From Frigoribacterium sp. CFBP 13712 (GTDB taxonomy: Bacteria; Actinomycetota; Actinomycetes; Actinomycetales; Microbacteriaceae), in contig NZ_JACYVH010000001.1 of NCBI RefSeq assembly GCF_014842255.1, forward strand, positions 399,264-463,263: 64,000 nucleotides of DNA, written 5' to 3'. Below the pieces are notes generated by a model, which was not told the origin of the DNA, did not search any database, and saw nothing but the letters and a program-made list of their open reading frames with translations. Both the position numbers and the translations under genes were made by a program. Below are positions 19,294-57,693 of this stretch, piece by piece. Every line of letters starts with the position of its first letter. The first letter of the stretch is position 1.

Positions 19294-19307
19294 CGACCCG
19301 CGCCTCC
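19294..19307 (-). repeat. Dispersed motif GGAGGCGCGGGTCG (copy 1)
   Basis: Exact copy on the minus strand in the gap after accE. The extended form GCGCCGAGGAGGCGC in this copy can fold into a small 5-base-pair hairpin. Confidence 0.8.
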
Positions 19308-19426
19308 TCGGCGCCGTTGTCCCCCGCGCGATCGTGCGGCTCCGGTCGACAACCCGGCACATCGGCACCGTTCCGGCCACCCGAACAGGGGTAGACGAGG
19401 TTATCGTCCCCTGGTTGTCCCCCTAA

Positions 19427-19522
19427 ATGTCGACTTTGCACTCGGTGCGACGACGGGCATCATTGTTCTTGCTAGGTGTAACTCTTCGAGTCGCACCACC
19501 GTTTGAGAATCAACTAGGGTAA
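19427..19522 (+). CDS. Possible 31-residue peptide within the small-RNA region
   Basis: ATG at 19427 opens a frame reading MSTLHSVRRRASLFLLGV and ending TLRVAPPFENQLG at TAA 19522. It has a basic head and a short hydrophobic stretch. No ribosome binding site precedes it and no correctly placed -10 box makes it leaderless, so translation is doubtful. The stop lies in the loop of the first hairpin, an arrangement compatible with a leader peptide but without a downstream gene to regulate. Confidence 0.25.
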   Translation: MSTLHSVRRRASLFLLGVTLRVAPPFENQLG

Positions 19523-19587
19523 GCGGGTTCTCAATCGGGGGCGGGTCAGGGCGGCATTCGGGTTGCCGCCCTGATCCGAAATCTTCC

Positions 19588-19622
19588 AGAAGGGCCGGAC
19601 ATCGTCCGGCCCTTCTTCTTTT
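19588..19622 (+). terminator. Rho-independent terminator of the small-RNA region
   Basis: A 13-base-pair stem AGAAGGGCCGGAC with loop ATC is followed by TTCTTTTC. It is one of only two terminators with a clear T-run in the window. Confidence 0.85.
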
Positions 19623-19629
19623 CGGGCGT

Positions 19630-20682
19630 TCAGGCCGAGAGGGTCCTCGGGATCTGCAGCCAGAGCTGGACCTCGTCGTCGTCGCCCTCGTCGTCGTCCG
19701 ACGTGCTCGAGAAGCCGCGCCCCAGGGCGCTCGAACTCGGATCCGGCGATCCGAGCCCGACCACGGTCACGGCGTGGTCGCCCCCGCCCGGCACCGTCCT
19801 GATGACGATGCGATCGGCGACCGAACCGTGCAGCGCATCGGCCAGAGTCCGATGGATGCGCGCCAGATCCGCACCGTCGACGTCATCGAGGCCGCCCTCG
19901 TCGAGCAGGCTCACGACCGCCCCGCGCCGACGAGCCGCCATCACCTCGCGCCGCACGTCGTCGTCGAGCAGACGTCGACCGCGGATCTCGTCTCGGATGG
20001 CGCCCTCGAGGTTCAAGCACTCGCGCCGCTGCTCGGCGCTCAGATCGCCGTCCTGAGACACGATGGCGAGCAGCATCGGACGGGCCGTCCGTCCGGTCTG
20101 CAGCAGACGGTACTGACGCTCGTTGACATGGGCCTCTTGCGCCGCCTGCCAGTCGGCCGCCTCGTGCTCGGCGAGGATGAACTCGCGCGTCTCGCGACTC
20201 GCCCTCGTCAACGACGACGACATGGCGGTGGCGAACGCGACCCAGGTCACGCTGCCGATCACGCCGAGATCGGCGAGGGTGTCGGCTCCGCTCCAGGCAG
20301 CACCGTGCAGCGCCATGAAGCCCACCCCGAGCCAGGCGAACGCCTGCCGGCGACGCGTGGCGACGATGACCATCAAGGTGCCGATCGCGGCCACGTACCA
20401 GGTGGCGTAGCCGTTCCTCCCCGCCGAGTCGAGCTGCGACGTGATCTGCAACGGGATGACGATGCTGACCGCCAGCGCGAAGGCCGCGATCCAGACGGGC
20501 ATCGCCGGCCCCCTGCCCGGCCAGAGCGCCGCGACGGTCGCCGCCGCGTACGCGACCATGCAGGCCACGACGGGCCAGGGATCGTCGAAGCGGTCGAGCG
20601 AGACCGAGGCCAGCACGAGGTGGTAGCAGGAGAAGACGGCGGCGAGCAGCACGATGAGCCACCGCGGCACGGAGACCCTCAC
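19630..20682 (-). CDS. Membrane protein partner of the two-component system
   Basis: A 350-residue protein with five or six N-terminal membrane helices (from WLIVLLAAVFSCYHLVLASV to VIGSVTWVAFATAMSS). A helical linker (REFILAEHEAADWQAAQEAH) and a C-terminal cytosolic domain follow. That domain has a strand TVVGLGSPDPSSS and an acidic tail DDDEGDDDE. It resembles a sensor kinase in layout but shows no histidine box and no ATP-binding N, G1 or G2 boxes. GTG at 20682 overlaps the kinase stop (GTGA), so the two are co-translated. It may be a degenerate kinase or a sensory subunit; I cannot tell which. Confidence 0.6.
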   Translation of the reverse strand: MRVSVPRWLIVLLAAVFSCYHLVLASVSLDRFDDPWPVVACMVAYAAATVAALWPGRGPAMPVWIAAFALAVSIVIPLQITSQLDSAGRNGYATWYVAAIGTLMVIVATRRRQAFAWLGVGFMALHGAAWSGADTLADLGVIGSVTWVAFATAMSSSLTRASRETREFILAEHEAADWQAAQEAHVNERQYRLLQTGRTARPMLLAIVSQDGDLSAEQRRECLNLEGAIRDEIRGRRLLDDDVRREVMAARRRGAVVSLLDEGGLDDVDGADLARIHRTLADALHGSVADRIVIRTVPGGGDHAVTVVGLGSPDPSSSALGRGFSSTSDDDEGDDDEVQLWLQIPRTLSA

Positions 20683-21935
20683 GAGAGCCGCCCCGGCATC
20701 GGCGGGGTGATGTCGCCGCTCGGCCACAGCAGACGGACGACCGTGCCGTCGCCCGGCCGCGAGTCGATGCAGGCACGTCCGCCGGCGTTCCGCAGGCGCT
20801 CGACGATGGAGACCCGGACGCCGAGGCGCTCCCCGGGGACGACGGCGGGATCGAAGCCGTGCCCGGTGTCGCCGACCTCGATGAGCGCCCCGCCGTCCGG
20901 ACCCGCGTCGATGCCGACCCATCGTCGGACCTCGACCCCGTGGCCGGCGTGCTGCGAGCTGTTGACGAGGGCCTGCACGGCGGCGCTGTACAGGGCTTCG
21001 GCCGCCGCGGACGGGATGCTGCACTCCTCGAGGTCGCCGGCCTTGAGATCGACCGACACCCCCATCTCGGAGCTCACGACGGCGAGCCGCTCACGCAGGG
21101 ACTCGAGGGTCGTCGTCGATTCGTCGAACGGCGTCGCGGCCGCAGCGGAGGCGAGGTGCGCCACGGCGTTCCGAGCCATGTTGGTCGCCAGGACGCGCTC
21201 GTCGGGCGAGTAGGCCCGCGCGGCCTGGATGAACGTCGTGAGGACGCTGTCGTGCACGATCGCGTCCACCTGCACCCGCTCGAGCTCCGTGGCGTGCTCG
21301 CGGATGGCGTTCGAGTAGCGCGCGACGGCGAGAGCCTGCGCCGCATCGACGTTGGCGGCCGCCTGCCGCAGGATCACGACCAGGATGAGCACGGCGCCAC
21401 CGAGCAGCACGGCGTAGATCGAGTCGAGGGCGGCGTGCGCCAGCGACACCGCGCCTCCTGAGGGGGTCAGACGGATGAGCCCGTAGACCAGCGGGGCGAC
21501 GAACAGGTACCCGACCGCGATCCACGCCGTGAACGCGTACGCGGCCGCAGCCGTCGCGACGGTGCAGAGGTACCAGAGCCACGGCACCGACGTCTGCACC
21601 GCGCTGGGGTCGTTCACCGCCAGCGGCCAGGTGATCAGCGCGATCAGATAGGAGATGGCGACGAAGGCCGCAGCGGTCTCGGCACCGCGGACGACGATGC
21701 TCGCGACGGCGACGGCGACGAACCCGCCGAAGATCGAGATGCCGATGAACCACGCCCACGCCTCTTGCATGGACCCGATCTGGTCGACCATCGACGGGAT
21801 GGTCTGCACGCCGAAGACGATGCCGCCGGCCCCGACGACCCTGCCCACGACCTTCTCGAGGAGCGCCCGACTGATCGGGTTCCGTGACGGACGCGGTGGC
21901 GCCGTCGGCCCCACGGAGGCCTGGTCAGCGACCAT
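20679..21935 (-). CDS. Sensor histidine kinase, NarL/LiaS-like class
   Basis: A 418-residue membrane kinase with about six N-terminal helices (IVFGVQTIPSM through AVLLGGAVLILVVIL). A dimerisation helix carries the likely phospho-acceptor histidine in DAIVHDSVLTTF. A C-terminal ATPase domain follows, with N box LVNSSQHAGHG, G1 GDTGHGFDP and G2 GERLGVRVSIVERL. ATG at 21935 overlaps the response-regulator stop by 11 bases. No extracellular sensor domain is evident, so the signal is probably sensed in the membrane or by the co-encoded partner protein. Confidence 0.85.
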   Translation of the reverse strand: MVADQASVGPTAPPRPSRNPISRALLEKVVGRVVGAGGIVFGVQTIPSMVDQIGSMQEAWAWFIGISIFGGFVAVAVASIVVRGAETAAAFVAISYLIALITWPLAVNDPSAVQTSVPWLWYLCTVATAAAAYAFTAWIAVGYLFVAPLVYGLIRLTPSGGAVSLAHAALDSIYAVLLGGAVLILVVILRQAAANVDAAQALAVARYSNAIREHATELERVQVDAIVHDSVLTTFIQAARAYSPDERVLATNMARNAVAHLASAAAATPFDESTTTLESLRERLAVVSSEMGVSVDLKAGDLEECSIPSAAAEALYSAAVQALVNSSQHAGHGVEVRRWVGIDAGPDGGALIEVGDTGHGFDPAVVPGERLGVRVSIVERLRNAGGRACIDSRPGDGTVVRLLWPSGDITPPMPGRLS

Positions 21936-22629
21936 CCCCGCCGTCCGCGTCGAGCCCGGGGAGGATTCCGTCCTCGACGGCACGGCGCAGGAGGTCGACC
22001 TTGGTCGGAGCGGGACGACCCACCTCGACGTACTTGACGCGGATGCGGTCGAGGTACTCGCGCGCGGTCGAGTACCCGATGCCGAGCTGCTGCGCGGCGA
22101 GCTTGAGCGGCAGCCCCGAGGCGTAGAGGTGCAGGATCTCGCGCTCGCGCCGTCCGAGCTGCGCCTTGGCGAAGTCGCGGTCGGCGTCGATCGCGCTCGC
22201 CCACTCGAGGTTGTTCAGCACGTCGCCGCGGGCCACCGTCGCGACCGCGGCCATGACCGTCTTCGTGGCGGACGACTTCGGGATCACGCCGGCCGCGCCG
22301 GCGGCGAGCGCCTCGCGGACGGACGCGACGCGGTCGGCGATGCTGTGCACCAGGACGGCCGAGCCGGTCGCCTGGACGCGCTTGACGTTCTCCGTCACGG
22401 TCGAGCCGTCGCCGAGCGACAGATCGAGCACGACGACGTCGACCTCACGGCCCGAGAGGTTCTCGACGAGCTCCTGCACGCCGGCGGCCGTCAGCACGAC
22501 CTCGAAGCCCTCGTTCTGGCACGCCGCCTGGATGCCCAACCGCACCGACTCGTGATCGTCGACGATCGCGACGCGCACGGGCGCGGTCGTCGGGGCGGGC
22601 TTGTTCGGATCAGTCGATGTCTCAGACAC
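21925..22629 (-). CDS. LuxR-family response regulator
   Basis: A 234-residue DNA-binding response regulator. The receiver domain (residues about 17-135) has the acidic pair in VAIVDDHES, the phospho-acceptor aspartate in VVVLDLSLGDGS, and the lysine in GVIPKSSATKT. The C-terminal HTH reads LGRREREILHLYASGLPLK, then AAQQLGIGYSTAREYLDRIR. GTG at 22629 preceded by GAAGGA sets the start. First gene of the regulator-kinase-partner operon. Confidence 0.9.
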   Translation of the reverse strand: MSETSTDPNKPAPTTAPVRVAIVDDHESVRLGIQAACQNEGFEVVLTAAGVQELVENLSGREVDVVVLDLSLGDGSTVTENVKRVQATGSAVLVHSIADRVASVREALAAGAAGVIPKSSATKTVMAAVATVARGDVLNNLEWASAIDADRDFAKAQLGRREREILHLYASGLPLKLAAQQLGIGYSTAREYLDRIRVKYVEVGRPAPTKVDLLRRAVEDGILPGLDADGGDGR

Positions 22630-22689
22630 GGTGTTCCTTCGCTCGGCGTGCGTCCGGGCCCCTGGAAACCCCGGGCGTGCACGGGCCCC

Positions 22690-22695
22690 ATCGTA
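22690..22695 (-). promoter_or_regulatory. Possible -10 box TACGAT for the two-component operon
   Basis: TACGAT on the minus strand, about 60 bases before the GTG of the response regulator. Confidence 0.3.
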
Positions 22696-22709
22696 TCGGC
22701 ATATCGGTC

Positions 22710-22737
22710 GGGGCTCGGGGTCCGGGGCTCGGGGTCC
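22710..22737. repeat. 14-base tandem duplication
   Basis: GGGGCTCGGGGTCC occurs twice head to tail between the response-regulator promoter and the end of the RNA methyltransferase gene. Confidence 0.7.
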
Positions 22738-22748
22738 GCGTCGACGGG

Positions 22749-23990
22749 TCAGGCCCGGACGAGCCGCGCGACCGTCTCGACGTGGTGGGTGTTGGGGAAG
22801 AGGTCGTACGCGGCGAGCGCGTCGACGTCGTACCCGAGGTCGCGGAACAGGGCGATGTCGCGGGCCAGGGCGACCGGGTCGCACGCGACGTACACGATCT
22901 GGGCCGGTGCGAGCCCGGCGATCTCCGTGACGACGTCTCGACCGGCGCCCGACCGCGGCGGGTCGAGCACCACGGTCGAGGCGGCGTAGCGACCACGGTC
23001 GAGGGATCCCGCCTGGGCGGCGGTCTGGCGGATCCAGCGCTCGACCCGCCCGGTCACCGCCGAGGCGCCGAGCCAGTCGGCGAGGTTCTCGGACGCGTGC
23101 TCGGTGGCGCGTTCGTCGCTCTCCACGCTGGTGATGCGGGTCCCCGCGCCGAAGGCGTCGCCGACGGCCGCGGCGAGCAGGCCGACGCCGCCGTAGAGGT
23201 CGAGGTTCGCGGCCTTCGGGTCGAACAGGTCGGGTCGGATCGACTGCTGGACGGCCTCCGTCAGCGTCGTGGCGGCCTCGCGGTGCACCTGCCAGAAGCC
23301 CCGGTCGTCGAGTCGGAACTCGCGGTCGCCGACCGTCTCGTAGATCGTGGTGCGCGACTGGTCGCCGATGACGAGACGGGCGCCGCCGACGCTCGGGGCC
23401 AGCACGTCGATGTGGGCCTCACCCGGGAAGACGTCGCCGAGCGGCGCCGCCTCGACGAGCTCGGGAGTCGCGAGCGGGAGGTCGTCGACCTGCACGACCG
23501 TGTGCGACCGTGCCGCGTACGGCCCCGTGCGTCCGTCGGCGTCGACGTGCAGTCGCACGCGCGTGCGCCAGCCGGTGCCGCCGCGCTCGTCGTCACCCGG
23601 CAGGGCCGCGACCTCGACGTCGGACCGCTCGGCGTCGAGACCGCCGGTGCGGGTCAGCGCATCGCGGAGAACCTGCCTCTTGAGCTCGCGCTGATGGGCC
23701 AGGTCGATGTGTCCGAACTCGGCGCCGCCGGCCCGCGCCGAGGGGTCGACCTCGACCGCGGCGGCCGACCAGACGTGAGGCCTGCGGTGCTCGCTCGCCT
23801 CGACGACCGACACGGTCTCGGCACGCCAGAACGACTTCTTGCGGTCTTCCGTGATGCGCGCCACGACCCGCTCGCCCGGCAGCGTGTCCGAGACGAAGAC
23901 GACGCGGCCGTCCAGTCGCGCCACCGAGATCCCCCCGTGTGCGATGCCCGTCACGTCCAGTTCGACCTCTCGGCCCTGCATGTCTCCCAT
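22749..23990 (-). CDS. TrmA/RlmD-type 23S rRNA or tRNA uridine-C5 methyltransferase
   Basis: A 413-residue RNA methyltransferase. Residues 1-60 are a TRAM RNA-binding domain (VELDVTGIAHGGISVARLDG, then GERVVARIT). The SAM-binding domain shows LDLYGGVGLLAAAV, VVLDPPRSGAGRDVV and the catalytic cysteine in YVACDPVALARD. The N-terminal iron-sulfur cysteines of E. coli RlmD are missing (EFGHIDLAHQRELKRQ where CGGCxLQH is expected), as I would expect in actinobacterial members. The substrate nucleotide is not deducible. Its ATG is only 26 bases from that of maf, divergently. Confidence 0.88.
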   Translation of the reverse strand: MGDMQGREVELDVTGIAHGGISVARLDGRVVFVSDTLPGERVVARITEDRKKSFWRAETVSVVEASEHRRPHVWSAAAVEVDPSARAGGAEFGHIDLAHQRELKRQVLRDALTRTGGLDAERSDVEVAALPGDDERGGTGWRTRVRLHVDADGRTGPYAARSHTVVQVDDLPLATPELVEAAPLGDVFPGEAHIDVLAPSVGGARLVIGDQSRTTIYETVGDREFRLDDRGFWQVHREAATTLTEAVQQSIRPDLFDPKAANLDLYGGVGLLAAAVGDAFGAGTRITSVESDERATEHASENLADWLGASAVTGRVERWIRQTAAQAGSLDRGRYAASTVVLDPPRSGAGRDVVTEIAGLAPAQIVYVACDPVALARDIALFRDLGYDVDALAAYDLFPNTHHVETVARLVRA

Positions 23991-23996
23991 ACGACG

Positions 23997-24002
23997 AGTC
24001 TG
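23997..24002 (-). promoter_or_regulatory. -10-like box CAGACT before the RNA methyltransferase
   Basis: CAGACT is six bases before the ATG on the minus strand. The first base deviates from TANNNT. It abuts the -10-like box of maf on the other strand. Confidence 0.35.
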
Positions 24003-24003
24003 A

Positions 24004-24009
24004 CAGGCT
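24004..24009 (+). promoter_or_regulatory. -10-like box CAGGCT before maf
   Basis: CAGGCT ends seven bases before the maf ATG at 24017, the same spacing as the other leaderless genes here. Confidence 0.35.
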
Positions 24010-24016
24010 GGTCGAC

Positions 24017-24706
24017 ATGACCGTTCCCCTCTTCCTGGCGAGCACCTCCCCGGCCCGTCTGTCGCTGCTCCGGTCGGCTGGCGTCGAACCCGTCCTGATC
24101 AGCCCCGGGGTCGACGAGGAGGCGGCGGTCGCCGTCGCCGAAGCGGCCGCGGGTCGGGCGCTGACCGCGGCCGAGACGGTGGCGCTGCTGGCGAGGGCGA
24201 AGGCCGAGGCGGTGCTCGACACCCGGCGCGACGGCCTCCCCCTCGACGGGCTCGTCCTCGGCGGCGACTCCGCCTTCGAGTTCGACGGCGAGGTGCACGG
24301 CAAGCCCCACGAGCCCGAGATCGCCCTCGAGCGCTGGCGGCGGATGGCCGAGATCGGTCACGGCACCCTCTGGTCGGGTCACTGGCTGATCGACCATCGG
24401 GGCGGGGCGCCCCGTCGGAGCCGCGAGCACCCCGAAGGAGGCGCGGGTCGGGTCGCGAGCGCGACGCTCACCTTCGCCGACGATCTCGACCCCGACGAGC
24501 TCGCCGCCTACGTCGCCACGGGCGAGCCCCTCGAGGTGGCCGGGGCCTTCACCATCGACGGGCGAGCGGCCGCCTTCATCACCCGCATCGACGGGACGCC
24601 GAGTGCCGTCGTCGGCCTGTCGCTGCCGGAGCTCCGAGCCATGGTGCGCGGGTTCGGCGTGCCGTGGCACGAGCTCTGGAACTCGTCGACCGCAGGTCTC
24701 TTGTAG
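24017..24706 (+). CDS. maf: Maf-type nucleotide pyrophosphatase
   Basis: Hydrolyses non-canonical or modified nucleoside triphosphates to monophosphates. The 229-residue protein begins FLASTSPARLSLLRSAGVEP, the family motif. It continues GGDSAFEFDGEVHGKP with the catalytic acid, HWLIDHRGG, the TLTF strand and GAFTIDGRAAAFI, then GLSLPEL. A 20-residue insertion (RRSREHPEGGAGRVASA) contains an exact copy of the dispersed 14-base motif. The gene neighbours the carboxylase genes as in mycobacteria. Confidence 0.9.
   Translation: MTVPLFLASTSPARLSLLRSAGVEPVLISPGVDEEAAVAVAEAAAGRALTAAETVALLARAKAEAVLDTRRDGLPLDGLVLGGDSAFEFDGEVHGKPHEPEIALERWRRMAEIGHGTLWSGHWLIDHRGGAPRRSREHPEGGAGRVASATLTFADDLDPDELAAYVATGEPLEVAGAFTIDGRAAAFITRIDGTPSAVVGLSLPELRAMVRGFGVPWHELWNSSTAGLL
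24437..24450 (+). repeat. Dispersed motif GGAGGCGCGGGTCG (copy 2, inside maf)
   Basis: Exact copy within coding sequence, encoding GGAGRV in a variable loop of Maf. Confidence 0.8.
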
Positions 24707-24716
24707 GACTCGTCAC

Positions 24717-24736
24717 GCGCCTCCGGCGCCTTTTTG
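24717..24736 (+). terminator. Rho-independent terminator after maf
   Basis: GCGCC-TCC-GGCGC hairpin followed by CTTTTTG, 10 bases after the maf stop. It separates maf from accA. Confidence 0.8.
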
Positions 24737-24771
24737 TGCACGTCAGCCAAAGACCGGTGAGAGGTGCCCAA

Positions 24772-24777
24772 TAGGCT
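24772..24777 (+). promoter_or_regulatory. -10 box TAGGCT, leaderless start of accA
   Basis: TAGGCT ends eight bases before the accA ATG. Confidence 0.5.
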
Positions 24778-24785
24778 GAGGGACT

Positions 24786-26543
24786 ATGCCGCGTATCAGC
24801 AAGGTCCTCATCGCCAACCGTGGAGAGATCGCCGTCCGGGTGATCCGGGCCGCGCGTGACAGCGGCATCGGCTCCGTCGCCGTCTACGCCGACCAGGATC
24901 GCGACGCCCAGCACGCCCGCCTCGCCGACGAGGCCTACGCGCTCGACGGCTCGACGAGCGCCGAGACCTACCTCGTCATCGAGAAGATCCTCTCGGTGGC
25001 CCGTCGTTCGGGCGCCGACGCCGTGCACCCCGGCTACGGCTTCCTGGCAGAGAACGCCGACTTCGCCCGCGCCGTCCAGGCGGCCGGCCTCGTCTGGATC
25101 GGGCCGTCGCCCGAGGCCATCGAGCAGCTCGGCGACAAGGTCTCCGCGAGGCACATCGCCGAGCGCGTGGGCGCACCCCTCGCCCCCGGCACGCTCAACC
25201 CCGTCTCGGGTGCCGACGAGGTGCTCGCGTTCGTCGACCAGCACGGACTCCCCGTCGCCATCAAGGCGGCCTTCGGCGGCGGCGGTCGCGGCCTCAAGGT
25301 CGCCCGGACCCGCGACGAGGTCCCCGAGATGTTCGACTCGGCGACCCGCGAGGCCGTCGCGGCGTTCGGCCGGGGCGAGTGCTTCGTCGAGAAGTACCTC
25401 GACCAGCCGCGACACGTCGAGACCCAGTGCCTCGCCGACGAGCACGGCAACGTCGTCGTCGTCTCGACGCGCGACTGCTCGCTGCAGCGTCGGCACCAGA
25501 AGCTCGTCGAGGAGGCCCCCGCGCCGTTCCTGACGGACGAGCAGACCGCCGCGCTGTACGAGTCCTCGAAGGCCATCCTCCGCGAGGTGGGCTACGTCGG
25601 CGCCGGCACCTGCGAGTTCCTCATCGGCAAGGACGGCACGGTGTCGTTCCTCGAGGTGAACACGCGCCTGCAGGTCGAGCACCCCGTCTCCGAGGAGGTC
25701 ACCGGCATCGACCTCGTCCGCGAGCAGTTCCGTCTGGCCGAGGGCGGCGTGCTCGACTACGACGACCCCATCGCCCGCGGGCACTCGTTCGAGTTCCGGG
25801 TGAACGGCGAGGACGCCGGTCGCGGCTTCATGCCCGCCCCCGGCCCGGTCCACGTCTTCAAGGCCCCGGGCGGGCCGGGCGTGCGCGTCGACAGCGGCGT
25901 TCAGGCCGGCGACGAGATCAGCGGCTCGTTCGACTCGCTGCTCGCCAAGCTGATCGTCACCGGCCCCACGCGTGAGGTCGCGCTCGAGCGTTCGCGCCGG
26001 GCCCTGGCCGAGTTCGAGGTCGCCGGGCTCCCCACCGTCCTCCCGTTCCACCGTGCCATCGTCGACGACCCGGCCTTCGCGCCGGCCGACGGCGCCCCGT
26101 TCTCGATCTACACCCGCTGGATCGAGACCGAGTTCGACAACACCATCCCCGCCTGGAGCGGCGAGGCCGAGGCCCCCCGACCCGACGACGAGCGCACGAC
26201 CGTCGTCGTCGAGGTGGGTGGCAAGCGGGTCGAGGTCTCGCTGCCGGCCGGTCTCGGTGCCCGCACCGCGCCTCCTTCGGTCGCCCCGAAGCGCCGCGGG
26301 GCCTCCCGCTCGGGTGTCGTGACGGCGACCGGCTCGTCCGTCACGTCGCCGATGCAGGCCACCGTCGTGAAGCTCGCCGTGACCGAGGGTCAGCAGGTCG
26401 TCAAGGGCGACCTCGTGCTCGTGCTCGAGGCCATGAAGATGGAGCAGCCCGTCGCCGCACACCGCGACGGCGTCGTCTCGGGCATCGACGCCACGGTCGG
26501 CCAGACCGTCTCGTCGGGTCACGTGCTGCTCAGCATCGACTGA
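24786..26543 (+). CDS. accA: Acyl-CoA carboxylase alpha subunit (biotin carboxylase plus carrier)
   Basis: Carboxylates biotin with ATP and bicarbonate and carries it to AccD. The 585-residue protein has a biotin carboxylase part: [33 protein letters not shown], the ATP-grasp loop [30 protein letters not shown] linker follows, then a biotinyl domain with the biotinylated lysine in EAMKMEQPV near residue 550. The biotin is presumably attached by the BirA encoded at 16.5 kb. The linker ([16 protein letters not shown]) contains a near copy of the dispersed motif on the opposite strand. Confidence 0.96.
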
Positions 26544-26551
26544 TCGCCCCC

Positions 26552-26606
26552 GGCGCCCTCCTCCCCCCGATCCGGTGCAGCCCATCCCGACTCGGGGAGG
26601 AGCGCC
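26552..26606 (+). terminator. Imperfect hairpin after accA
   Basis: A GC-rich arm starting GGCGCCCTCCTCCCC nine bases after the accA stop pairs imperfectly with CGGGGAGGAGCGCC downstream. No T-run. It may terminate the carboxylase transcript before the purine nucleoside phosphorylase promoter. Confidence 0.4.
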
Positions 26607-26608
26607 GA

Positions 26609-26622
26609 GGAGGCGCGGGTCG
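26609..26622 (+). repeat. Dispersed motif GGAGGCGCGGGTCG (copy 3)
   Basis: Exact copy in the gap between accA and the nucleoside phosphorylase, in the extended form GCGCCGAGGAGGCGC that can form a small hairpin. Confidence 0.8.
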
Positions 26623-26647
26623 AGCAGGTCGGGACGGCCGCAGACTC

Positions 26648-26653
26648 TAGAGT
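26648..26653 (+). promoter_or_regulatory. -10 box TAGAGT, leaderless start of the nucleoside phosphorylase
   Basis: TAGAGT ends seven bases before ATG 26661; this supports that start over the upstream in-frame GTG at 26652. Confidence 0.55.
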
Positions 26654-26660
26654 GGTGGGC

Positions 26661-29176: not shown

Positions 29177-29202
29177 GGGTCAGGGGCGCGCAGCCCCGTC
29201 GC

Positions 29203-29475: not shown

Positions 29476-29518
29476 GACATGGCTTCCGTCTCGGTGCAGC
29501 GGGGGTAGGGGCCGGCGC

Positions 29519-29965: not shown

Positions 29966-29966
29966 G

Positions 29967-32472: not shown

Positions 32473-32526
32473 GCGCCTCCGGAATGATGTCAGAACGACG
32501 GGAGGAGCAGGGCACCGAGGAGGCGC
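32473..32526. repeat. Inverted pair GCGCCTCC ... GGAGGCGC
   Basis: GCGCCTCC at 32473-32480 is complementary to GGAGGCGC at 32519-32526 within the deoA-cdd gap. It could form an 8-base-pair stem with a 38-base loop between the two genes. Confidence 0.4.
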
Positions 32527-32532
32527 GGGTCG
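32519..32532 (+). repeat. Dispersed motif GGAGGCGCGGGTCG (copy 4)
   Basis: Exact copy in the deoA-cdd gap. It is preceded by GGGAGGAGC, as is copy 3, giving an extended similarity between the two gaps. Confidence 0.8.
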
Positions 32533-41989: not shown

Positions 41990-42003
41990 CGACCCGCGCC
42001 TCC
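41990..42003 (-). repeat. Dispersed motif GGAGGCGCGGGTCG (copy 5)
   Basis: Exact copy on the minus strand in the 63-base gap between sdhD and sdhA. Confidence 0.8.
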
Positions 42004-46199: not shown

Positions 46200-46205
46200 C
46201 CATCC

Positions 46206-46980: not shown

Positions 46981-47004
46981 CCCCGGCCCGACCGGCCCGA
47001 TCGA

Positions 47005-48660: not shown

Positions 48661-48787
48661 TGTGAGACCTCTTCGTTTCGGTGAGTTCGGATGCCGGGCA
48701 CGGGCGGTGACCCTGTGCCGCGCGGTCGCGTGCCATCGTACGCGAGGCGCACGGGTGCGTGGTCCGGACGCGAGCGTCGCGCACCCC

Positions 48788-48793
48788 TACCCT
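48788..48793 (+). promoter_or_regulatory. -10 box TACCCT, leaderless start of the YihY gene
   Basis: TACCCT ends six bases before ATG 48800 and decides this start in a frame that is open for a long way upstream. Confidence 0.5.
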
Positions 48794-48799
48794 GGTGCG

Positions 48800-49903
48800 A
48801 TGCGACGACGACCGGACGACGAGCGGTCGATCGACGACCCCGTGGCCGGAGACGACGCCGACGCCCGGTCGAGGGTCGGCCGCGTCACGACGGCGCGGCC
48901 CGTGCGGGTGGTCGGCCGCTACGTCGGAGCGAAGGGCCCGCTGCTCGCCGCCGGTCTCACGTACCAGGCCCTCTTCGCCCTGTTCGCGGGCCTCTGGGTG
49001 GGCTTCTCCGTCGCGGGCTTCGTCGTCTCGGGCGACGAGGCCCTCCGCGACCAGCTGGTCGTCTTCATCCGCTCGGCCGTCCCCGGCCTGATCCAGGACG
49101 ACTCGGGGGCGGGCGTGGTCGACCCCGACGCCCTCCTCGACGCCACCGTCTTCGGCTGGACCGGCGCGATCGCGTTCGTGGGTCTGCTCTTCTCCGCCAT
49201 CACCCTCTTCGGCGGGATGCGCGACTCCGTCCGCACGATCTTCCGTGCGCCGTCGCCGGCCACCCCGTTCCTCCGGCTGGTGCTGCGCGACCTGGCCCTC
49301 GCCCTCGCCTTCGGCGCCGCCGTGGTCGTCTCGGCCACGGTCTCGCTGCTCAGCACCACGGCGGTGCGCTGGGCCCTGCACCTGCTCGATCTGTCGACCA
49401 CGTCGGCCGCGTCCGTCCTGCTGCTCCGTGTCACGGCGCTCCTGCTCGTCTTCGTCTTCGACGCTCTCGTGCTCGCCGCGCTGTTCCGGGTGCTGGCGGG
49501 TCTGCACATCCCCGGCCCGCGCCTCCTCGTGGGGTCCGCCCTCGGCGCCGCGGGCTTCGTCGGTCTGACGGTCGTCGGCGGGACCCTGCTCCGCGCGACG
49601 GGCGCCAACCCCCTCCTGGCGTCGTTCGCGGCGGTCATCGGTCTGCTGATCGTCATCGATCTGCTCTGCCAGGTGCTGCTGCTCGCCGCGGCCTGGATCG
49701 CGGTCGGCATGGACGACATCGGGGTGCTCGCCGACCCGCACCAGGAGGCCGAGCGCCTGCGCCTGCTCGAGGAGGAGCGGCTGGCCCAGGAGGCGCGGGT
49801 CGCCACCCGCTCCCGGCGTGCCGTCGCGGCCGTGCGGGGCCTCGTCTCCCGCCTGCCCCGTCCCTCCCGACCGCGCGGCGACGGCGACGGTGGCCGCCGG
49901 TAG
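48800..49903 (+). CDS. YihY/BrkB-family membrane protein
   Basis: A 367-residue integral membrane protein with about six helices: LTYQALFALFAGLWVGFSVA, TGAIAFVGLLFSAITLFGGM, LALAFGAAVVVSATVSLL and further ones ending near VAVGMDDIGV. The basic, disordered tail contains QEARVATRSRR, encoded by an exact copy of the dispersed motif. The family was once annotated as RNase BN, but that activity belongs to another gene; the function is unknown. It lies 10 bases before exonuclease III. Confidence 0.85.
   Translation: MRRRPDDERSIDDPVAGDDADARSRVGRVTTARPVRVVGRYVGAKGPLLAAGLTYQALFALFAGLWVGFSVAGFVVSGDEALRDQLVVFIRSAVPGLIQDDSGAGVVDPDALLDATVFGWTGAIAFVGLLFSAITLFGGMRDSVRTIFRAPSPATPFLRLVLRDLALALAFGAAVVVSATVSLLSTTAVRWALHLLDLSTTSAASVLLLRVTALLLVFVFDALVLAALFRVLAGLHIPGPRLLVGSALGAAGFVGLTVVGGTLLRATGANPLLASFAAVIGLLIVIDLLCQVLLLAAAWIAVGMDDIGVLADPHQEAERLRLLEEERLAQEARVATRSRRAVAAVRGLVSRLPRPSRPRGDGDGGRR
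49789..49802 (+). repeat. Dispersed motif GGAGGCGCGGGTCG (copy 6, inside the YihY gene)
   Basis: Exact copy within coding sequence, encoding EARV in the disordered C-terminal tail. Confidence 0.8.
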
Positions 49904-49906
49904 TGT
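49901..49906 (+). promoter_or_regulatory. -10 box TAGTGT, leaderless start of exonuclease III
   Basis: TAGTGT overlaps the YihY stop and ends seven bases before ATG 49914. Confidence 0.5.
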
Positions 49907-49913
49907 TCTGCGC

Positions 49914-50759
49914 ATGGGAACACGTCTCCGCCTCGCCTCCGTCAACGTCAACGGCATCCGGGCCGCGTACCGCAGAGGCATGGGCGACTGGCTCGCCGAG
50001 CGCGACGTCGACATCCTCACGCTCCAAGAGGTGCGCGCCTCGACCGACGACCTCGAGGGCCTGCTCGGCCCCGAGTGGAACGTCGTCCACCACCCCGCGA
50101 CGGCGAAGGGCCGCGCGGGTGTGGCCATCGCCTCCCGCGGGGCGGCCTCCGTGCACCGCGTCGAGCTCGGCGACGACGACTTCGACAGCGCCGGGCGGTG
50201 GATCGAGGCCGATTACGACGTCGCCGGCACGATCGTCACGGTCGTCAGCACCTACGTGCACTCGGGCGAGGTCGACACCCCCAAGCAGGACGAGAAGTGG
50301 AGATTCCTCGACGCGATGACCGCCCGGCTGCCGCAGCTGGCGGCGCACAACGGGCTCGCGGTCGTGACGGGCGACCTGAACGTCGGTCATCGCGAGCTCG
50401 ACATCAAGAACTGGAAGGGCAACGTCAAGCGGGCCGGCTTCCTCCCGCGCGAGCGCTCGTACTTCGACCGGTTCCTCGGCGAGGCCGGGACCGAGATCGA
50501 GACGGTGGACGGCACCGGCGGCAGCGGACTCGGCTGGGTCGACGTCGGGCGCCGGCTCGCGGGCGAGGTCGAGGGGCCGTACTCGTGGTGGTCGTGGCGC
50601 GGCCAGGCCTTCGACAACGACACCGGTTGGCGCATCGACTACCACCTGGCGACGCCCGCTCTCGCGGCCAAGGCCGAGAACCACACCATCGATCGAGCGC
50701 CGTCGTACGCCGAGCGCTGGTCCGACCACGCACCCGTCGTCGTCGACTACGACATCTGA
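49914..50759 (+). CDS. xth: Exodeoxyribonuclease III / AP endonuclease
   Basis: Cuts abasic DNA and degrades 3' ends during base-excision repair. The 281-residue protein has LASVNVNGIRAAYRRG, the metal-binding glutamate in LTLQEVRAS, GDLNVGHRELDIKNWKGN, WRIDYHLATP and the catalytic WSDHAPVVVDYD. Full length. It is followed closely by trpS. Confidence 0.94.
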   Translation: MGTRLRLASVNVNGIRAAYRRGMGDWLAERDVDILTLQEVRASTDDLEGLLGPEWNVVHHPATAKGRAGVAIASRGAASVHRVELGDDDFDSAGRWIEADYDVAGTIVTVVSTYVHSGEVDTPKQDEKWRFLDAMTARLPQLAAHNGLAVVTGDLNVGHRELDIKNWKGNVKRAGFLPRERSYFDRFLGEAGTEIETVDGTGGSGLGWVDVGRRLAGEVEGPYSWWSWRGQAFDNDTGWRIDYHLATPALAAKAENHTIDRAPSYAERWSDHAPVVVDYDI

Positions 50760-51851
<1,092 letters not shown>

Positions 51852-51853
51852 TC

Positions 51854-52498
51854 GTGCAGCCCTTCGTCCTCGAGTCCGACGCCGTGCGTCTGGCGGTGCC
51901 CGAGCGGGCGGACGTCGCCGCCATCGTCGACGCGTGCCGCGACCCCGAGCTGCAGAGGTTCACGACCGTCCCCGTGCCCTACGACGAGTCCGACGCCGAG
52001 TTCTTCCTCCGACGGATCGTCGATCACGGCTGGTCGACCGGGCGCGAGTTCACCTGGGGGCTCCGGTCTCCCGGGTCGTCGCTGCTCGTCGGCATGATCA
52101 GCCTGCGCTTCGCGGACGACGACATCGGCTTCTGGACGTCACCCGCCCATCGGGGTCGAGGTCTCATGACGGCCGCGGTCGCTCTCGTGGCCGACTGGGC
52201 GTTCGCTCACGGCGGGGTCGACGAGCTCTACTGGGAGGGGTTCGTCGACAACGACGGCAGCGCCGGCGTAGCCCGATCGACGGGGTTCCGGTACACCGGC
52301 GACGCCCCGGGTCTGCATCCGGCACGCGACGGCTCCCATCCGCTCTGCCGGACGGCTCGACTCCGTTCGAGCGACGACCGGTCGGTGAAGCCCGGGTGGC
52401 CCGTCGGCGTCTCCCCCTCGGAATACTCGCGCGACCCTGCGGTTGACATCCGTGGCCTCGACGAACCGATCGGCGAGACCGAACCGGAGAGACCATGA
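51854..52498 (+). CDS. GNAT-family N-acetyltransferase (RimJ/RimL-like)
   Basis: A 214-residue acetyltransferase of the GNAT_3 type that modifies protein N-termini or small amines. It has LESDAVRLAVPERADVAAIV, the VGMISLRFADDDIGFWTSP strands, the acetyl-CoA loop HRGRGLMTAAVALVADWAF, and YWEGFVDNDGSAGVARSTGF. About 35 extra residues at the end are probably disordered. GTG at 51854 lies 2 bases after trpS, and the stop overlaps ribD (ATGA). The substrate cannot be read from sequence. Confidence 0.85.
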   Translation: MQPFVLESDAVRLAVPERADVAAIVDACRDPELQRFTTVPVPYDESDAEFFLRRIVDHGWSTGREFTWGLRSPGSSLLVGMISLRFADDDIGFWTSPAHRGRGLMTAAVALVADWAFAHGGVDELYWEGFVDNDGSAGVARSTGFRYTGDAPGLHPARDGSHPLCRTARLRSSDDRSVKPGWPVGVSPSEYSRDPAVDIRGLDEPIGETEPERP

Positions 52499-53528
52499 CC
52501 ACCCCCTCGAGCGCGTACGACGCCGCCATGCGGCGAGCGCTCGAGCTGGCTCTCCGTGGCACGTCCCTCGGCCCCAACCCCCAGGTCGGGTGCGTCCTCC
52601 TCCGCCCCGACCTGACGGTGGCGGCCGAGGGATGGCACCGCGGCGCCGGGACACCGCACGCCGAGGTCGACGCGCTCTCGAGGCTCGCGCCGGGCGAGTC
52701 CGCCGTCGGCCTCACGGCCGTCGTCAGTCTCGAGCCCTGCGATCACACCGGCCGGACGGGCCCCTGCAGCGAGGCCCTGATCGGCGCCGGGGTGTCGAGG
52801 GTCGTCTACGCCGTCTCCGATCCCGGCGAGTCGTCCTCGGGTGGTGCCGAGCGCCTCCGGCGGGCCGGGGTCGAGGTCGTGGCGGGCGTCCTCCGCGACG
52901 ACGCCGAGGAGACCATCCGCCCCTGGCTCGTGGCGACCCGTGCGGGTCGCCCGTTCGTCACCCTCAAGTGGGCCTCCAGTCTCGACGGACGCGCCGCCGC
53001 GGCCGACGGCACCAGCCGGTGGATCACGGGCACGGCCGCCCGACAGCACGTGCACGAGCAGCGGGCCGCGCACGACGCCATCCTCGTCGGCACCGGCACC
53101 GTCCTGGCCGACGACCCCGGGCTCACCGCGCGCGGCGACGGCGGCGAGCTGCTCGCCGACCAGCCGCTGCCCGTCGTGGTCGGCCACCGGCCCGTCCCGG
53201 CCGACGCCGAACTCCGGAGACACCCGAGGGCTCTCGTCGAGACCGGCAGCCGAGACCTCGAGGCCGTGCTCGCCGACCTCTACGGGCGCGGCGTCCGCAG
53301 CGTGTTCGTCGAGGGCGGCCCGACCGTCGCCAGCGAGTTCGTGCGACGAGGCCTCGTCGACGACTACCTCGTCTACCTCGCCCCGACGCTCCTCGGCGGA
53401 CCGCGCACGGCCCTCGGCGATCTCGGTGTGGCGAGCATCGACGGTCAGGTCCGTCTCGTGACGACCCGCGTGACCCCCCTCGGCGACGACGTCCTGATCG
53501 TCGCCCGTGCCCAGCCCCGGAGAACACC

Positions 53529-53532
<4 letters not shown>
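52495..53532 (+). CDS. ribD: Riboflavin deaminase/reductase RibD
   Basis: Bifunctional second and third steps of riboflavin synthesis. The 345-residue protein has an N-terminal deaminase with the zinc sites TPHAEVDAL and PCDHTGRTGPC, and a C-terminal reductase (VTLKWASSLDGRAAAADGTS, then ITGTAARQHVHEQRAAHDA and FVEGGPTVASEFVRRG). ATG overlaps the GNAT stop and the stop overlaps ribA. No FMN riboswitch is visible upstream. Confidence 0.95.
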
Positions 53533-54170
<638 letters not shown>

Positions 54171-54189
54171 GCACCACTCACGAAGGCGC

Positions 54190-54195
54190 TAAACT
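54190..54195 (+). promoter_or_regulatory. -10 box TAAACT upstream of the MFS gene
   Basis: TAAACT lies 160 bases before the preferred MFS ATG. The 184-base gap after ribA holds nothing else recognisable. Confidence 0.35.
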
Positions 54196-54354
54196 GAACG
54201 ACGGCTGTCACGAGCGGCCACACCCCACCGGCGTCGTGCGCCCCTGCTGATCCCCGGCCGACGCACGTCCACGACCGAGCCGTTGAGTGCCCCACCCGGC
54301 CCCGCTCCGCCGTCGTCGCCGGCATCGTCCTCCCCGCCGCTCCGGAGTCCCCCC

Positions 54355-55701
54355 ATGTCGTCATCAGCCGTCGCCTCGTCGACGCAGCCCGCACCTCCTG
54401 CCAACAAGCGCTCGCGCGTCATCATCGCGAGCCTCGTCGGCACGTCCATCGAGTTCTACGACTTCTACGTCTACGCGACGGCCGCCGTCCTCGTCTTCCC
54501 GACCGTCTTCTTCGCGAACGACGACCCCGCCGTCGCGCGCCTCGCCTCGTTCGCCGTCTTCGGCGTCGCCTTCATCGCCCGACCCGTCGGCTCGATCGTG
54601 TTCGGCCACTTCGGCGACCGCATCGGCCGCAAGGGCACCCTCGTCGCCTCCCTCCTCACGATGGGCATCGCGACGGTGCTGATCGGCTGCATCCCCGCCG
54701 GCACGACGCCCGGCTGGGCCGTCGCGGGCCCCGCGTGCCTCGTCGTGCTGCGCTTCTGCCAGGGTCTCGGCCTCGGCGGCGAGTGGAGCGGCGCGGCGCT
54801 GCTGGCGACCGAGAACGCCCCGAAGAACCGACGGGCGATCTACGGCACGTTCCCCCAGCTGGGCGCGCCGATCGGCTTCATCATCGCCAACCTGCTGTTC
54901 GTGCTGCTGAACACCACCCTGACCGAAGAGCAGTTCATGGCCTGGGGCTGGCGGCTGCCGTTCCTGGCGAGCGCCCTGCTGGTGATCATCGGGCTCTACG
55001 TCCGCTTCAAGCTGATCGAGACCCCGGCGTTCCAGAAGGTCGTCGACTCGGGTTCGGTCGCGAAGCTGCCCCTGGCCCGCGTCTTCACGACGAGCTGGCG
55101 CCCGCTGATCCTCGGCACGTTCATCATGCTGGCCACGTACACGCTGTTCTACCTGATGACGACCTTCACCCTGACCTTCGGCACGGCCGATGCCGCCGGC
55201 GACCCGGCGGGTCTCGGCATCCCCCGCACGCAGTTCCTGTGGATGCTCATCCTCGGGGTCGTCTTCTTCGGCGTCTTCACCCTCGTCTCCGGGCCGCTCG
55301 CCGAGAGGTACGGACGACGGGCGATGCTCATCTGCGTCACGGCCGGCATCCTGGTGTTCGGGTTCCTGTTCGCCCCGCTGTTCGCCGGCGGCGTGCTCGG
55401 CGCGCAGGCACTGCTGATCATCGGCTTCGTGCTGATGGGGCTCACCTTCGGCCCCATGGGCGCGGTGCTGCCCGAGCTGTTCCCGACCAGCGTCCGGTAC
55501 ACCGGCTCGGCGATCAGCTACAACGTCGCGAGCATCCTCGGCGCGGCCGTGGCCCCGTTCATCGCCGTGTGGCTCTGGACGGCTGCAGGCGGCAGCACCT
55601 GGCTCGTCGGGCTCTACCTCTCGTCGATGGCCGCTCTGACGCTCGTCGCGTTGATCCTCAGCCGCGAGACCCGCGACGTCGACTACGAGGCCGTCGACTG
55701 A
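54355..55701 (+). CDS. MFS transporter, metabolite:H+ symporter (MHS) family
   Basis: A 448-residue 12-helix transporter. The first helix region SLVGTSIEFYDFYVYATAAV is the MHS hallmark. The loop GHFGDRIGRKGTLV is MFS motif A, and RFCQGLGLGGEWSGAALL and FPTSVRYTGSAISYN are further family blocks. Likely substrates of such proteins are organic acids, betaines or shikimate; which one is unknown. ATG at 54355 with CGGAG upstream is preferred over earlier in-frame starts. Confidence 0.9.
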   Translation: MSSSAVASSTQPAPPANKRSRVIIASLVGTSIEFYDFYVYATAAVLVFPTVFFANDDPAVARLASFAVFGVAFIARPVGSIVFGHFGDRIGRKGTLVASLLTMGIATVLIGCIPAGTTPGWAVAGPACLVVLRFCQGLGLGGEWSGAALLATENAPKNRRAIYGTFPQLGAPIGFIIANLLFVLLNTTLTEEQFMAWGWRLPFLASALLVIIGLYVRFKLIETPAFQKVVDSGSVAKLPLARVFTTSWRPLILGTFIMLATYTLFYLMTTFTLTFGTADAAGDPAGLGIPRTQFLWMLILGVVFFGVFTLVSGPLAERYGRRAMLICVTAGILVFGFLFAPLFAGGVLGAQALLIIGFVLMGLTFGPMGAVLPELFPTSVRYTGSAISYNVASILGAAVAPFIAVWLWTAAGGSTWLVGLYLSSMAALTLVALILSRETRDVDYEAVD

Positions 55702-55803
55702 CAGGTGCCGGGGCCGCCGACGAAGTACGGTCGTCTCAGGCGGTCCGTCGGCCGCCCCGGTCACCCGCCGCGCGCCGCGCGGCCTCCAGGCACGAGAGGC
55801 ACC

Positions 55804-57693
55804 ATGAGCTCCGACACGAGCGCGCGCACCCCGACGACCCCTGCCGAGGAGGCGCGGGTCGACCCCCCGAGGGCGCGCCGCGGTCTCGGACGCCGTCGCC
55901 CTCCCGAGGGGCCCCGTGCCACGTTCCGTCAGCTGCTGCCGTACCTCTTCGAGCACAAGAAGGTCATGACGGTGATCATCGTGCTCAGCGTGCTGGGCGC
56001 CGCGGCCTCGCTCGGTCAGCCGCTGCTCGTACAACGGGTGATCGCCGTCGTCGAGCAGGGCGGGGCCCTGGGCTCGCTCGTCTGGGCCCTCGTGGGCCTC
56101 GTGGTCGTGGCCGGTCTGCTGAGCGGGTTCCAGCACTACCTGCTGCAGCGCACCGGCGAGGGCGTCGTGCTCTCCAGCCGGCGCCGCCTCGTCGGGCGCA
56201 TGCTGCGACTGCCGGTCAGCGAGTTCGACTCCCGCCGCACGGGCGACCTCGTCTCGCGGGTCGGTTCGGACACCACGCTGCTGCGCGCCGTCCTGACGCA
56301 GGGCCTCGTCGAGGCGATCGGCGGCAGCCTCACCTTCATCGGCGCCCTGGTCGGCATGTTCCTGATCGACCCCGTGCTGCTCGGACTCACCGTGCTGGTC
56401 GTCGCCGTCTCGGTGCTCGTCGTCGTGCTGCTCTCGGGGCGCATCCGGGTCGCGAGCCGACAGGCGCAGGAGAAGGTCGGAGACCTCACGGCGGCCGTCG
56501 AACGGGCCATCAGCTCGGTCCGCACCATCCGGGCGTCGGGGGCCACCGAGCGCGAGGTCGCCGCGGTCGAGCTCGACGCCGTCGGGGCCTACGAGCGGGG
56601 GCTGCAGGTCGCCCGGATCTCGGCGCTCGTCGTGCCCATCTCGTCGATCGCGCTGCAGGCCTCGTTCCTGGTCGTGCTCGGAGTCGGGGGCTTCCGTGTC
56701 GCCAGCGGCGCCATCGAGATCGCGTCGCTGGTGTCGTTCGTGCTCTTCCTCTTCCTGATGATCATGCCGCTCGGCCAGGCGCTCGGCGCCGTCCTCAGCG
56801 TGAACCAGGCGCTGGGCGCCCTCGGTCGCATCCAGGAGATCCTCGACCTCCCGTCGGAGGACCACGATGACCGCCGCACGGCCGCCGACCTCGCCGGTGT
56901 CGCCCGCGTCGAGACCACCGACGCCGTGACCTTCGACGACGTGCACTTCCGCTACCCCGCGGCACCGGACGCAGCGGCCGGCGGGGTCGACGGCGTCGTG
57001 CCGGACGACGACCTCACTGTGCTCCGCGGGGTCAGCTTCTCCGTCCCCGCCGGCGGGCGCACCGCTCTGGTCGGGCCGTCGGGCGCGGGCAAGAGCACCA
57101 TGCTGGCGCTCATCGAGCGCTTCTACGACCCGACGGCGGGAGTCGTTCGGATCGACGGGGTCGACCTGCGCGCCCTCGACCGCGACGAGCTGCGCTCGCG
57201 CATCGGGTACGTCGAACAGGACGCCCCCGTGCTCGCCGGCACCATCCGCGACAACCTGACCCTCGGCTCGCCGGGCGCCACCGACGACGACTGCCGACGG
57301 GTGCTCGAGGCCGTGAACCTCACCGCGGTGCTCGATCGCGGCGACGAGGGCCTCGACGCGCAGGTCGGCGAAGACGGCGTCATGCTCTCGGGCGGCGAGC
57401 GCCAGCGTCTCGCGATCGCCCGCACCCTGCTCTCCGCCCCGCCCATCCTCCTGCTCGACGAGTCGACGTCGAGCCTCGACGGCGTCAACGAGCAGCGTCT
57501 GCGTGGCGCGATCGACGCCGTGGCGGAGGACCGCACGCTGATCGTCATCGCCCACCGACTGTCGACCGTCGTCGACAGCGACCAGATCGTCGTCGTCGAC
57601 GGCGGGCGGGTCGTCGGGGTCGGCACGCACTCCGAGCTGGTGGTCAGCACGCCGCTCTACCGCGACCTCGCGAAGCACCAGCTGCTCGTCTAG
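55804..57693 (+). CDS. ABC exporter, fused membrane and ATPase domains
   Basis: A 629-residue half-transporter. After a 50-residue charged head come six membrane helices (from VMTVIIVLSVLGAAASLG to VSFVLFLFLMIMPL), then an ATPase domain. The ATPase has Walker A ALVGPSGAGKSTMLALIERF, signature MLSGGERQRLAIARTLL, Walker B ILLLDESTSSLD and the H-loop IVIAHRLSTV. It resembles multidrug or lipid exporters; the substrate is unknown. The head contains AEEARVDPP encoded by an exact copy of the dispersed motif. It converges on the oxidoreductase gene. Confidence 0.9.
   Translation: MSSDTSARTPTTPAEEARVDPPRARRGLGRRRPPEGPRATFRQLLPYLFEHKKVMTVIIVLSVLGAAASLGQPLLVQRVIAVVEQGGALGSLVWALVGLVVVAGLLSGFQHYLLQRTGEGVVLSSRRRLVGRMLRLPVSEFDSRRTGDLVSRVGSDTTLLRAVLTQGLVEAIGGSLTFIGALVGMFLIDPVLLGLTVLVVAVSVLVVVLLSGRIRVASRQAQEKVGDLTAAVERAISSVRTIRASGATEREVAAVELDAVGAYERGLQVARISALVVPISSIALQASFLVVLGVGGFRVASGAIEIASLVSFVLFLFLMIMPLGQALGAVLSVNQALGALGRIQEILDLPSEDHDDRRTAADLAGVARVETTDAVTFDDVHFRYPAAPDAAAGGVDGVVPDDDLTVLRGVSFSVPAGGRTALVGPSGAGKSTMLALIERFYDPTAGVVRIDGVDLRALDRDELRSRIGYVEQDAPVLAGTIRDNLTLGSPGATDDDCRRVLEAVNLTAVLDRGDEGLDAQVGEDGVMLSGGERQRLAIARTLLSAPPILLLDESTSSLDGVNEQRLRGAIDAVAEDRTLIVIAHRLSTVVDSDQIVVVDGGRVVGVGTHSELVVSTPLYRDLAKHQLLV
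55848..55861 (+). repeat. Dispersed motif GGAGGCGCGGGTCG (copy 7, inside the ABC exporter gene)
   Basis: Exact copy within coding sequence, encoding EARV in the disordered N-terminal head. Confidence 0.8.

Follow-up and report, generated by a model that had tools for sequence, protein, structure and literature searches.

To date, self-recognition tags for DNA uptake have been described in just two bacterial families, the Pasteurellaceae with their uptake signal sequences (USS) and the Neisseriaceae with their DNA uptake sequences (DUS). Two dialects of USS have been described and ungapped alignments argue that copies originated by substitution (PMC1626085), while in Haemophilus influenzae pairs of USS are found in terminators (PMC5217627). 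The USS core reads AAGTGCGGT or ACAAGCGGT, and the inner core of DUS is CTG (PMC12616744). Among actinobacteria, Micrococcus luteus requires Tad pili for transformation (PMC4322843), and according to one account no uptake sequence is reported for mycobacteria (PMC10526031). Here we describe a short, G+C-rich motif dispersed over the genome of Frigoribacterium sp. CFBP 13712 (Microbacteriaceae) and seen at first in a stretch of 64,000 nucleotides of contig NZ_JACYVH010000001.1 (positions 399,264 to 463,263, hereafter the window), which we lean towards interpreting as the trace left in a Gram-positive genome by a DNA-uptake (self-recognition) sequence.

A sequence-only reading of the window had recorded seven exact copies of a 14-base motif (14-mer), all of which we recovered at the same positions and on the same strands, together with twelve further or partial core sites, all of them at offsets of 0 to 4 bases from the recorded positions; the window contains the 9-mer GGAGGCGCG 31 times. 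Allowing up to two mismatches, the window contains 25 matches against a mean of 8.6 in 100 dinucleotide shuffles, none of which reached 25. In the whole genome (3.156 Mb in 40 contigs) the exact 14-mer is present in 442 copies (207 forward, 235 reverse) and its reversed control in none, and with up to one mismatch the count rises to 890 versus 19 for the control, a density of about one copy per 3.5 kb. For a more detailed inspection we used the 463 kb of contig 1 that run from its start up to and including the window (hereafter the sample, 15% of the genome), where 54 exact 14-mers face 0 or 1 in simulations of Markov order 3, 4 and 5 (three each). The excess over chance claimed in the sequence-only reading is thus confirmed, genome-wide against the reversed control and, in simulations restricted to the 463 kb that did not preserve codon usage, also against Markov models, so that its prediction was not refuted. 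Words derived from the motif rank at the top for every length from 8 to 12 in the sample, and the 11-base core AGGAGGCGCGG is found 130 times where a fifth-order model expects 5.3. Shuffles, Markov models, the reversed control and the word-excess counts therefore rule out chance or base composition as the cause. An iterated weight matrix drifted into coding periodicity, and no counts were taken from it.

The consensus of the 54 exact copies extends beyond the 14 bases proposed originally to a full unit of about 18-19 bases, approximately (G)CCGAGGAGGCGCGGGTCG, with a 5' extension of G at position -5 (65%), C at -4 (78%), C at -3 (69%), G at -2 (59%) and A at -1 (80%), outside of which the sequence is near-random. 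The four bases 3' of the core are variable (GTCG in 43, CGCA in 8, TGCG in 6 and GTCA in 6 of the 130 core copies). The consensus differs from the USS core and from the DUS inner core, which makes the motif a member of neither family and only similar to both; it is moreover G+C-rich with random flanks in a Gram-positive host, whereas USS have AT-rich flanks. A hairpin of the form GCGCC-GAGGA-GGCGC, earlier pointed out for two copies, does not belong to the motif, as only 2 of the 118 CGAGGAGGCGC sites in the sample carry it and only 2 of 41 GCCGAGGAGGCGCGG sites have the two stem-extending bases.

Among the genomes sampled, the motif is specific to two genera and exists in a different dialect in each. 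All 16 Frigoribacterium genomes analysed contain the 15-mer, from 64 copies in the low-copy genome G110 to 362, the highest number, in the window's genome, with at most one match for the control. Across 199 genomes of the family, three other Frigoribacterium contain 183, 93 and 157 14-mers and the related genus g32 contains 51, 56 and 9, compared to 0-6 elsewhere. In 396 genomes of the order, a draw with the window's genome as the sole Frigoribacterium and no genome of g32, the 17-mer was counted 239 times in the window's genome and once in each of 17 others. Among the matches listed in an 18-mer scan of named genomes, 59 of 80 belonged to Frigoribacterium and 21 were single matches in unrelated bacteria, and a viral collection yielded 50 phage stretches with one 16-mer each. 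In 400 kb of the g32 genome G105 the top 12-base words were CTGGAGGCGCGG (50 copies, 0.6 expected) and GCCTGGAGGCGC (44 copies, 0.5 expected), and the 14-mer of this dialect, GCCTGGAGGCGCGG, occurs 223 times in G031, a second g32 genome (115/108 by strand), and 270 times in G105 (141/129). Four Frigoribacterium genomes contain 0, 0, 1 and 0 copies of it and the rest of the 199 genomes 0-2. These counts indicate for the dialect pair, CCGAGGAGGCGCGG in Frigoribacterium versus GCCTGGAGGCGCGG in g32, that the inner core GGAGGCGCGG is common to both genera and that the 5' flank has been switched. The situation resembles that of the Hin- and Apl-type USS, two dialects with a common inner core (PMC1626085, PMC12616744), and the dialects of DUS (PMC12616744). 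The median identity of the 48 proteins with a counterpart above 55% identity in the samples of the window's genome and G105 is 76%, and Frigoribacterium and g32 are therefore not close sisters at the species level.

Within Frigoribacterium, G110 has the same core in weaker excess (48 copies vs 4.5 expected in 200 kb). A further word, CGAGGGCGGGTC, is over-represented there (19 copies vs 1.1 expected in 200 kb) and is perhaps a variant motif of this low-copy species. In 100 kb each of G049, G109, G026 and G028, representing 4 of the 85 genera drawn from the family, no 11- or 12-base word exceeded a z score of 15, compared to 24-28 in 100 kb of the window's genome. We did observe other repeated words in these samples, namely GCGGATGCGT (17 copies vs 2.2 expected) and CTAGCTAGCTAG (10 vs 0.1) in those of G049 and G109, and CGGGCGCAACCC and CGGGTTGCGCCC in that of G026 (10 copies each vs 0.1 expected), a palindromic repeat of another genus.

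The origin of the copies was investigated in a 20 kb block around a biotin carboxylase gene, aligned across 16 species (the window's own and 15 relatives). GGAGGCGCGG occurs 87 times in these blocks, some of which will be chance matches, the word being shorter than the motif; genes account for 57 of these occurrences, at 10 distinct sites, and gaps or gene edges hold the other 30, at 7 sites. None of the 160 in-gene cells (10 sites in 16 species) is gapped, 57 being exact and 103 carrying substitutions, and all 27 exact 14-mers within genes of the sample are ungapped versus the relative G204, which is 84% identical to the aligned sample. In-gene copies therefore arose by substitution, as argued for the many in-gene copies of USS (PMC1626085). 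The gap and gene-edge sites present a different picture, with 48 of 112 cells gapped, as might be produced by a short mobile repeat that spreads by insertion, i.e., of the repetitive extragenic palindromic (REP) or miniature inverted-repeat transposable element (MITE) kind. REP elements, which go with a RAYT transposase, are short and numerous, many are located in gaps and some form inverted pairs, and the motif with its many near-identical copies is similar in all these respects. It differs from them in that half of its exact copies are located in genes and no insertion gaps occur at in-gene sites, which largely refutes mobility for these copies, while the random flanks beyond 18-19 bases also argue against a mobile unit. 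Furthermore, a REP-type transposase (PF01797) was found in none of the 16 Frigoribacterium genomes, the same search being positive in 5 of 14 reference genomes used as control. We thus consider the mobile repeat exceedingly improbable, and the "spreading mini-repeat" of the sequence-only reading is not supported. Since gapped cells are to be expected in fast-evolving gaps, the gap sites neither show nor exclude insertion, and with such indel-rich alignments a substitution origin has been demonstrated for the in-gene copies alone.

Once present, the copies are conserved, strongly in genes and moderately in gaps. In G204 the 14-mer is intact at 20 of the 27 copies within genes and at 8 of the 26 gap copies that could be aligned, compared to a baseline for G+C-rich 14-mers of 10% (genes) and 7% (gaps) and for all 14-mers of 20% and 19%, respectively. 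For the 11-base core, 51 of 73 in-gene and 23 of 51 gap copies are intact, versus 24% and 18% of nearby shifted windows. Conservation above that of the flanks and permissive locations have also been described for DUS (PMC2397512).

With respect to genes (403 genes called by our own script, 90% coding in the sample), the exact copies are split evenly, 27 in gaps and 27 in genes, although gaps make up only 10% of the DNA (binomial p ~1e-13). Of the 130 core copies 73 lie within genes, 33 on the same and 40 on the opposite strand. Those in gaps are concentrated near gene 3' ends, as 46% of the gap core copies that have a 3' end next to them are found within 20 bp of it (15% in the background) and 71% within 40 bp (29%), while 10% are located within 20 bp of a gene 5' end (17%) and divergent gaps contain 4 core copies where 13 were expected. 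The same 3'-end preference was observed in G204 and, for its own dialect, in G105, with the exception that G105 displays no preference within the first 10 bp (0.06 vs 0.08). Six close inverted pairs of the core in the sample form strong hairpins, the six gene ends that carry them having a mean RNA fold of -47.7 kcal/mol, which is reminiscent of the USS pairs in terminators (PMC5217627). Both the 3'-end preference and these strong folds would be accounted for if the motif were a 3'-end element, i.e., a transcription terminator or RNA-processing signal. However, gene ends with a single copy fold no better than others when matched for G+C (-30.7 kcal/mol for 33 ends vs -33.8 for 125 others, p 0.13), tandem gaps show no uniform orientation of the core (23 opposite and 12 same in the window's genome, 12 and 12 in G204), and the majority of core copies reside inside genes in both orientations, all of which makes such a function quite improbable.

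Nor does the motif reflect a peptide. On the opposite strand the 27 exact in-gene copies contribute to Thr-Arg-Ala-Ser (12) or Asp-Pro-Arg-Leu (6), and on the same strand to Glu-Ala-Arg-Val (7) or Gly-Gly-Ala-Gly-Arg (2), the last requiring the glycine codon GGA, which accounts for 6% of Gly codons in the sample. With four classes of frame and orientation in genes and half of the exact copies in gaps, a protein-level cause (EARV or GGAGR peptides) was rejected.

The motif is found on both strands without replication polarity. In the one-contig genome G110, the one complete genome in which strand bias was analysed, 46 of 93 exact copies agree with a half split that places the origin at the contig start, and the largest cumulative strand run, a test that needs no origin, was 16 compared to a permutation mean of 15.8 (p 0.51). 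A Chi-type recombination hotspot or a KOPS-type polar segregation signal (KOPS, FtsK orienting polar sequences) would likewise be an over-represented, G+C-rich and genus-specific short word, but the lack of strand bias and the strong enrichment in gaps are unexpected for either, and we regard both as very improbable. The copies of G110 are spread evenly over chromosome tenths (decile chi-square p 0.69) without clustering in one part of the chromosome, and in our sample their spacing is slightly more even than random (Kolmogorov-Smirnov (KS) test, p 0.03). Of the chromosome-organising role suggested in the sequence-only reading, the polar version is not supported, given the missing strand switch and the even spread in G110. 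A non-polar version survives as a rival, in which an abundant chromosome or nucleoid protein of both genera, involved in packing, segregation or DNA repair, binds the motif and selection keeps it. The conserved copies, their even spread and spacing and the absence of strand bias are in line with this explanation. Chromosome proteins, however, are usually common to several genera, and the motif is near chance in the sampled genomes of other genera; a change of dialect at hundreds of sites would in addition have required co-evolution of the protein, and a clustering in one part of the chromosome is missing in G110. On balance we find such a protein site unlikely. As it could nevertheless give rise to several of the features and is opposed only by the dialects and the motif's confinement to two genera, our preference for an uptake sequence is a guarded one.

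Genes of the kinds that make up a competence machinery are present in the genome of Frigoribacterium sp. CFBP 13712. ComEC (PF03772), which is found in all 16 Frigoribacterium genomes, is encoded here by an open reading frame of 830 aa directly following that of a ComEA-like protein, which measures 236 aa and has SLBB and helix-hairpin-helix domains. A tad cluster is located some 8-10 kb past the window end (G000:C1, about 470990-473450; L382:8-2463) and comprises a TadA-type ATPase (T2SSE), a T2SSF-family protein of the TadB/C kind and a short Flp-like pilin, which we presume to be such from its TAEYA stretch; we take the adjoining gene to encode an acetyl-CoA synthetase. In its possession of ComEA, ComEC and tad genes the organism resembles the actinobacterium Micrococcus luteus, with the difference that an "uptake sequence" is absent from the main text of the work on the latter (PMC4322843). 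DUS, in turn, not only have another sequence but are read by the minor pilin ComP, and the strong T2SSE match (E about 1e-139) obtained for G203, G110, G031, G105 and G163, which from its strength we assume to be of the PilB kind, is missing in our genome. Since this genome has the most copies of all 16, the reader of the motif is probably not that pilus.

The uptake reading rests on the combined resemblance to USS and DUS in abundance, occurrence on both strands and in genes as well as gaps, hairpin-forming pairs at 3' ends, substitution origin within genes, conservation and dialects. We infer from it both that uptake maintains the motif and which kind of protein might read it. A DNA receptor at the cell surface, probably a part of the Tad/Flp pilus or ComEA, would prefer DNA containing (G)CCGAGGAGGCGCGGGTCG, such that DNA of the same genus would enter through ComEC and recombine more often than foreign DNA. 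As fragments with a better match would be taken up and pasted in more frequently, point mutations towards the motif could accumulate wherever they are tolerated, be it close to the 3' ends of genes, at synonymous codons or in permissive gene regions, and existing copies might be repaired by the same bias. In the related genus a receptor with a shifted preference would have given rise to the second dialect with the same inner core. The suggestion of the sequence-only reading that the motif is "actively maintained" and "DNA-uptake-like" has accordingly gained backing from the conservation, the substitution origin, the two dialects and the presence of competence genes.

Several observations weigh against an uptake sequence. 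Besides the absence of the strong T2SSE match from the genome richest in copies, ComEC was also found in 10 of 14 control genomes and, being frequent where the motif is lacking, constitutes weak evidence. Carriage is patchy in g32, where G163 holds 9 copies of the 14-mer and 2 of GCCTGGAGGCGCGG and shows no strong word in 200 kb. Copies in gaps turn over fast, 18 of 26 not being intact in G204, and the gapped cells at gap and gene-edge sites leave their origin ambiguous. DNA absent from the sister species is not clearly poorer in the core (2 found vs 4.8 expected in our genome, 6 vs 8.2 in G204) or in the 14-mer (1 vs 2.0 and 3 vs 3.2), so that a core-versus-accessory bias as known for DUS is not clear here. 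Finally, we found no uptake or transformation experiment on Frigoribacterium in the open-licence literature, which also returned no match to the motif in several spellings, and competence, uptake, transformation, tad and pilus are not mentioned in the main text of the Frigoribacterium adelgis genome paper (PMC12823222).

Whether we are dealing with the first self-recognition system for uptake that belongs to neither the Neisseriaceae nor the Pasteurellaceae but to an actinobacterium with one membrane, having originated independently on a Tad-pilus/ComEA route and with at least two genus dialects, appears to us evenly balanced. If so, it would represent a third, independent case and the first in Gram-positives, implying that such tags evolved repeatedly and are workable without an outer membrane. 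With it one could also readily test if biased uptake is by itself enough to write a motif into a genome, and it might provide a practical handle for the transformation of these actinobacteria.

In the window itself, four of the seven exact copies are situated in gaps and three in genes, in agreement with the sequence-only reading. The copy at 19294..19307 (minus strand) lies between two genes that converge, 6 bp downstream of the stop of the gene for an acyl-CoA carboxylase epsilon subunit, and that at 26609..26622 (plus) between the biotin carboxylase gene, named from its translation, and a gene of the phosphorylase family. The copy at 32519..32532 (plus) occupies a gap, 15 bp downstream of the stop of the minus-strand gene that follows; here 10 of 16 species have an exact 10-base core (the 14-mer being exact or 1-3 letters off) within diverged flanks, and the remaining 6 species are gapped, the core being absent along with the surrounding stretch. 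The fourth gap copy, at 41990..42003 (minus), follows the stop of the upstream gene at a distance of 10 bp. The genes harbouring the other three match the Maf-like, BrkB and ABC transporter families. In the Maf-like gene (24017-24706) the copy at 24437..24450 (plus) is read as GGA GGC GCG GGT CG, i.e., Gly-Gly-Ala-Gly-Arg, and the orthologue of G204 differs by one substitution, with no gap across 16 species. The copies at 49789..49802 (plus, frame QEARV) in the BrkB-family gene (48755-49903) and at 55848..55861 (plus) close to the called start of the ABC transporter gene (55804-57693) are both exact in G204. Copies with one mismatch are GGAGGCGCGGTTCG at 12874..12887 (plus), GGAGGCGCGGGCCG at 49513..49526 (minus) and 58029..58042 (plus) and GGTGGCGCGGGTCG at 61408..61421 (plus). 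A partial copy, GGAGGCGCGG at 17948..17957 (plus), lies in a coding frame where glycine is encoded by the rare GGA; it is exact in 14 of 16 species, with substitutions in G206 and G167.

Independently of this motif, we noticed a second repeat family, in which GTCGGCAACTCCT and its inverse flank a likely hairpin at a spacing of about 70 bp; a gap often contains several units. Searches of the window, L031, L032 and L035 against Rfam gave no match to it, and its word AGGAGTTGCCGA was not found in the samples of G110, G105, G163, G049, G109, G026 and G028. The sample of our genome contains 15 copies of this word, all of them in gaps, and 500 kb of G204 contain 18; examples outside the window are located at L031:13150-13250, L032:12410-12720 and L032:19660-19910.

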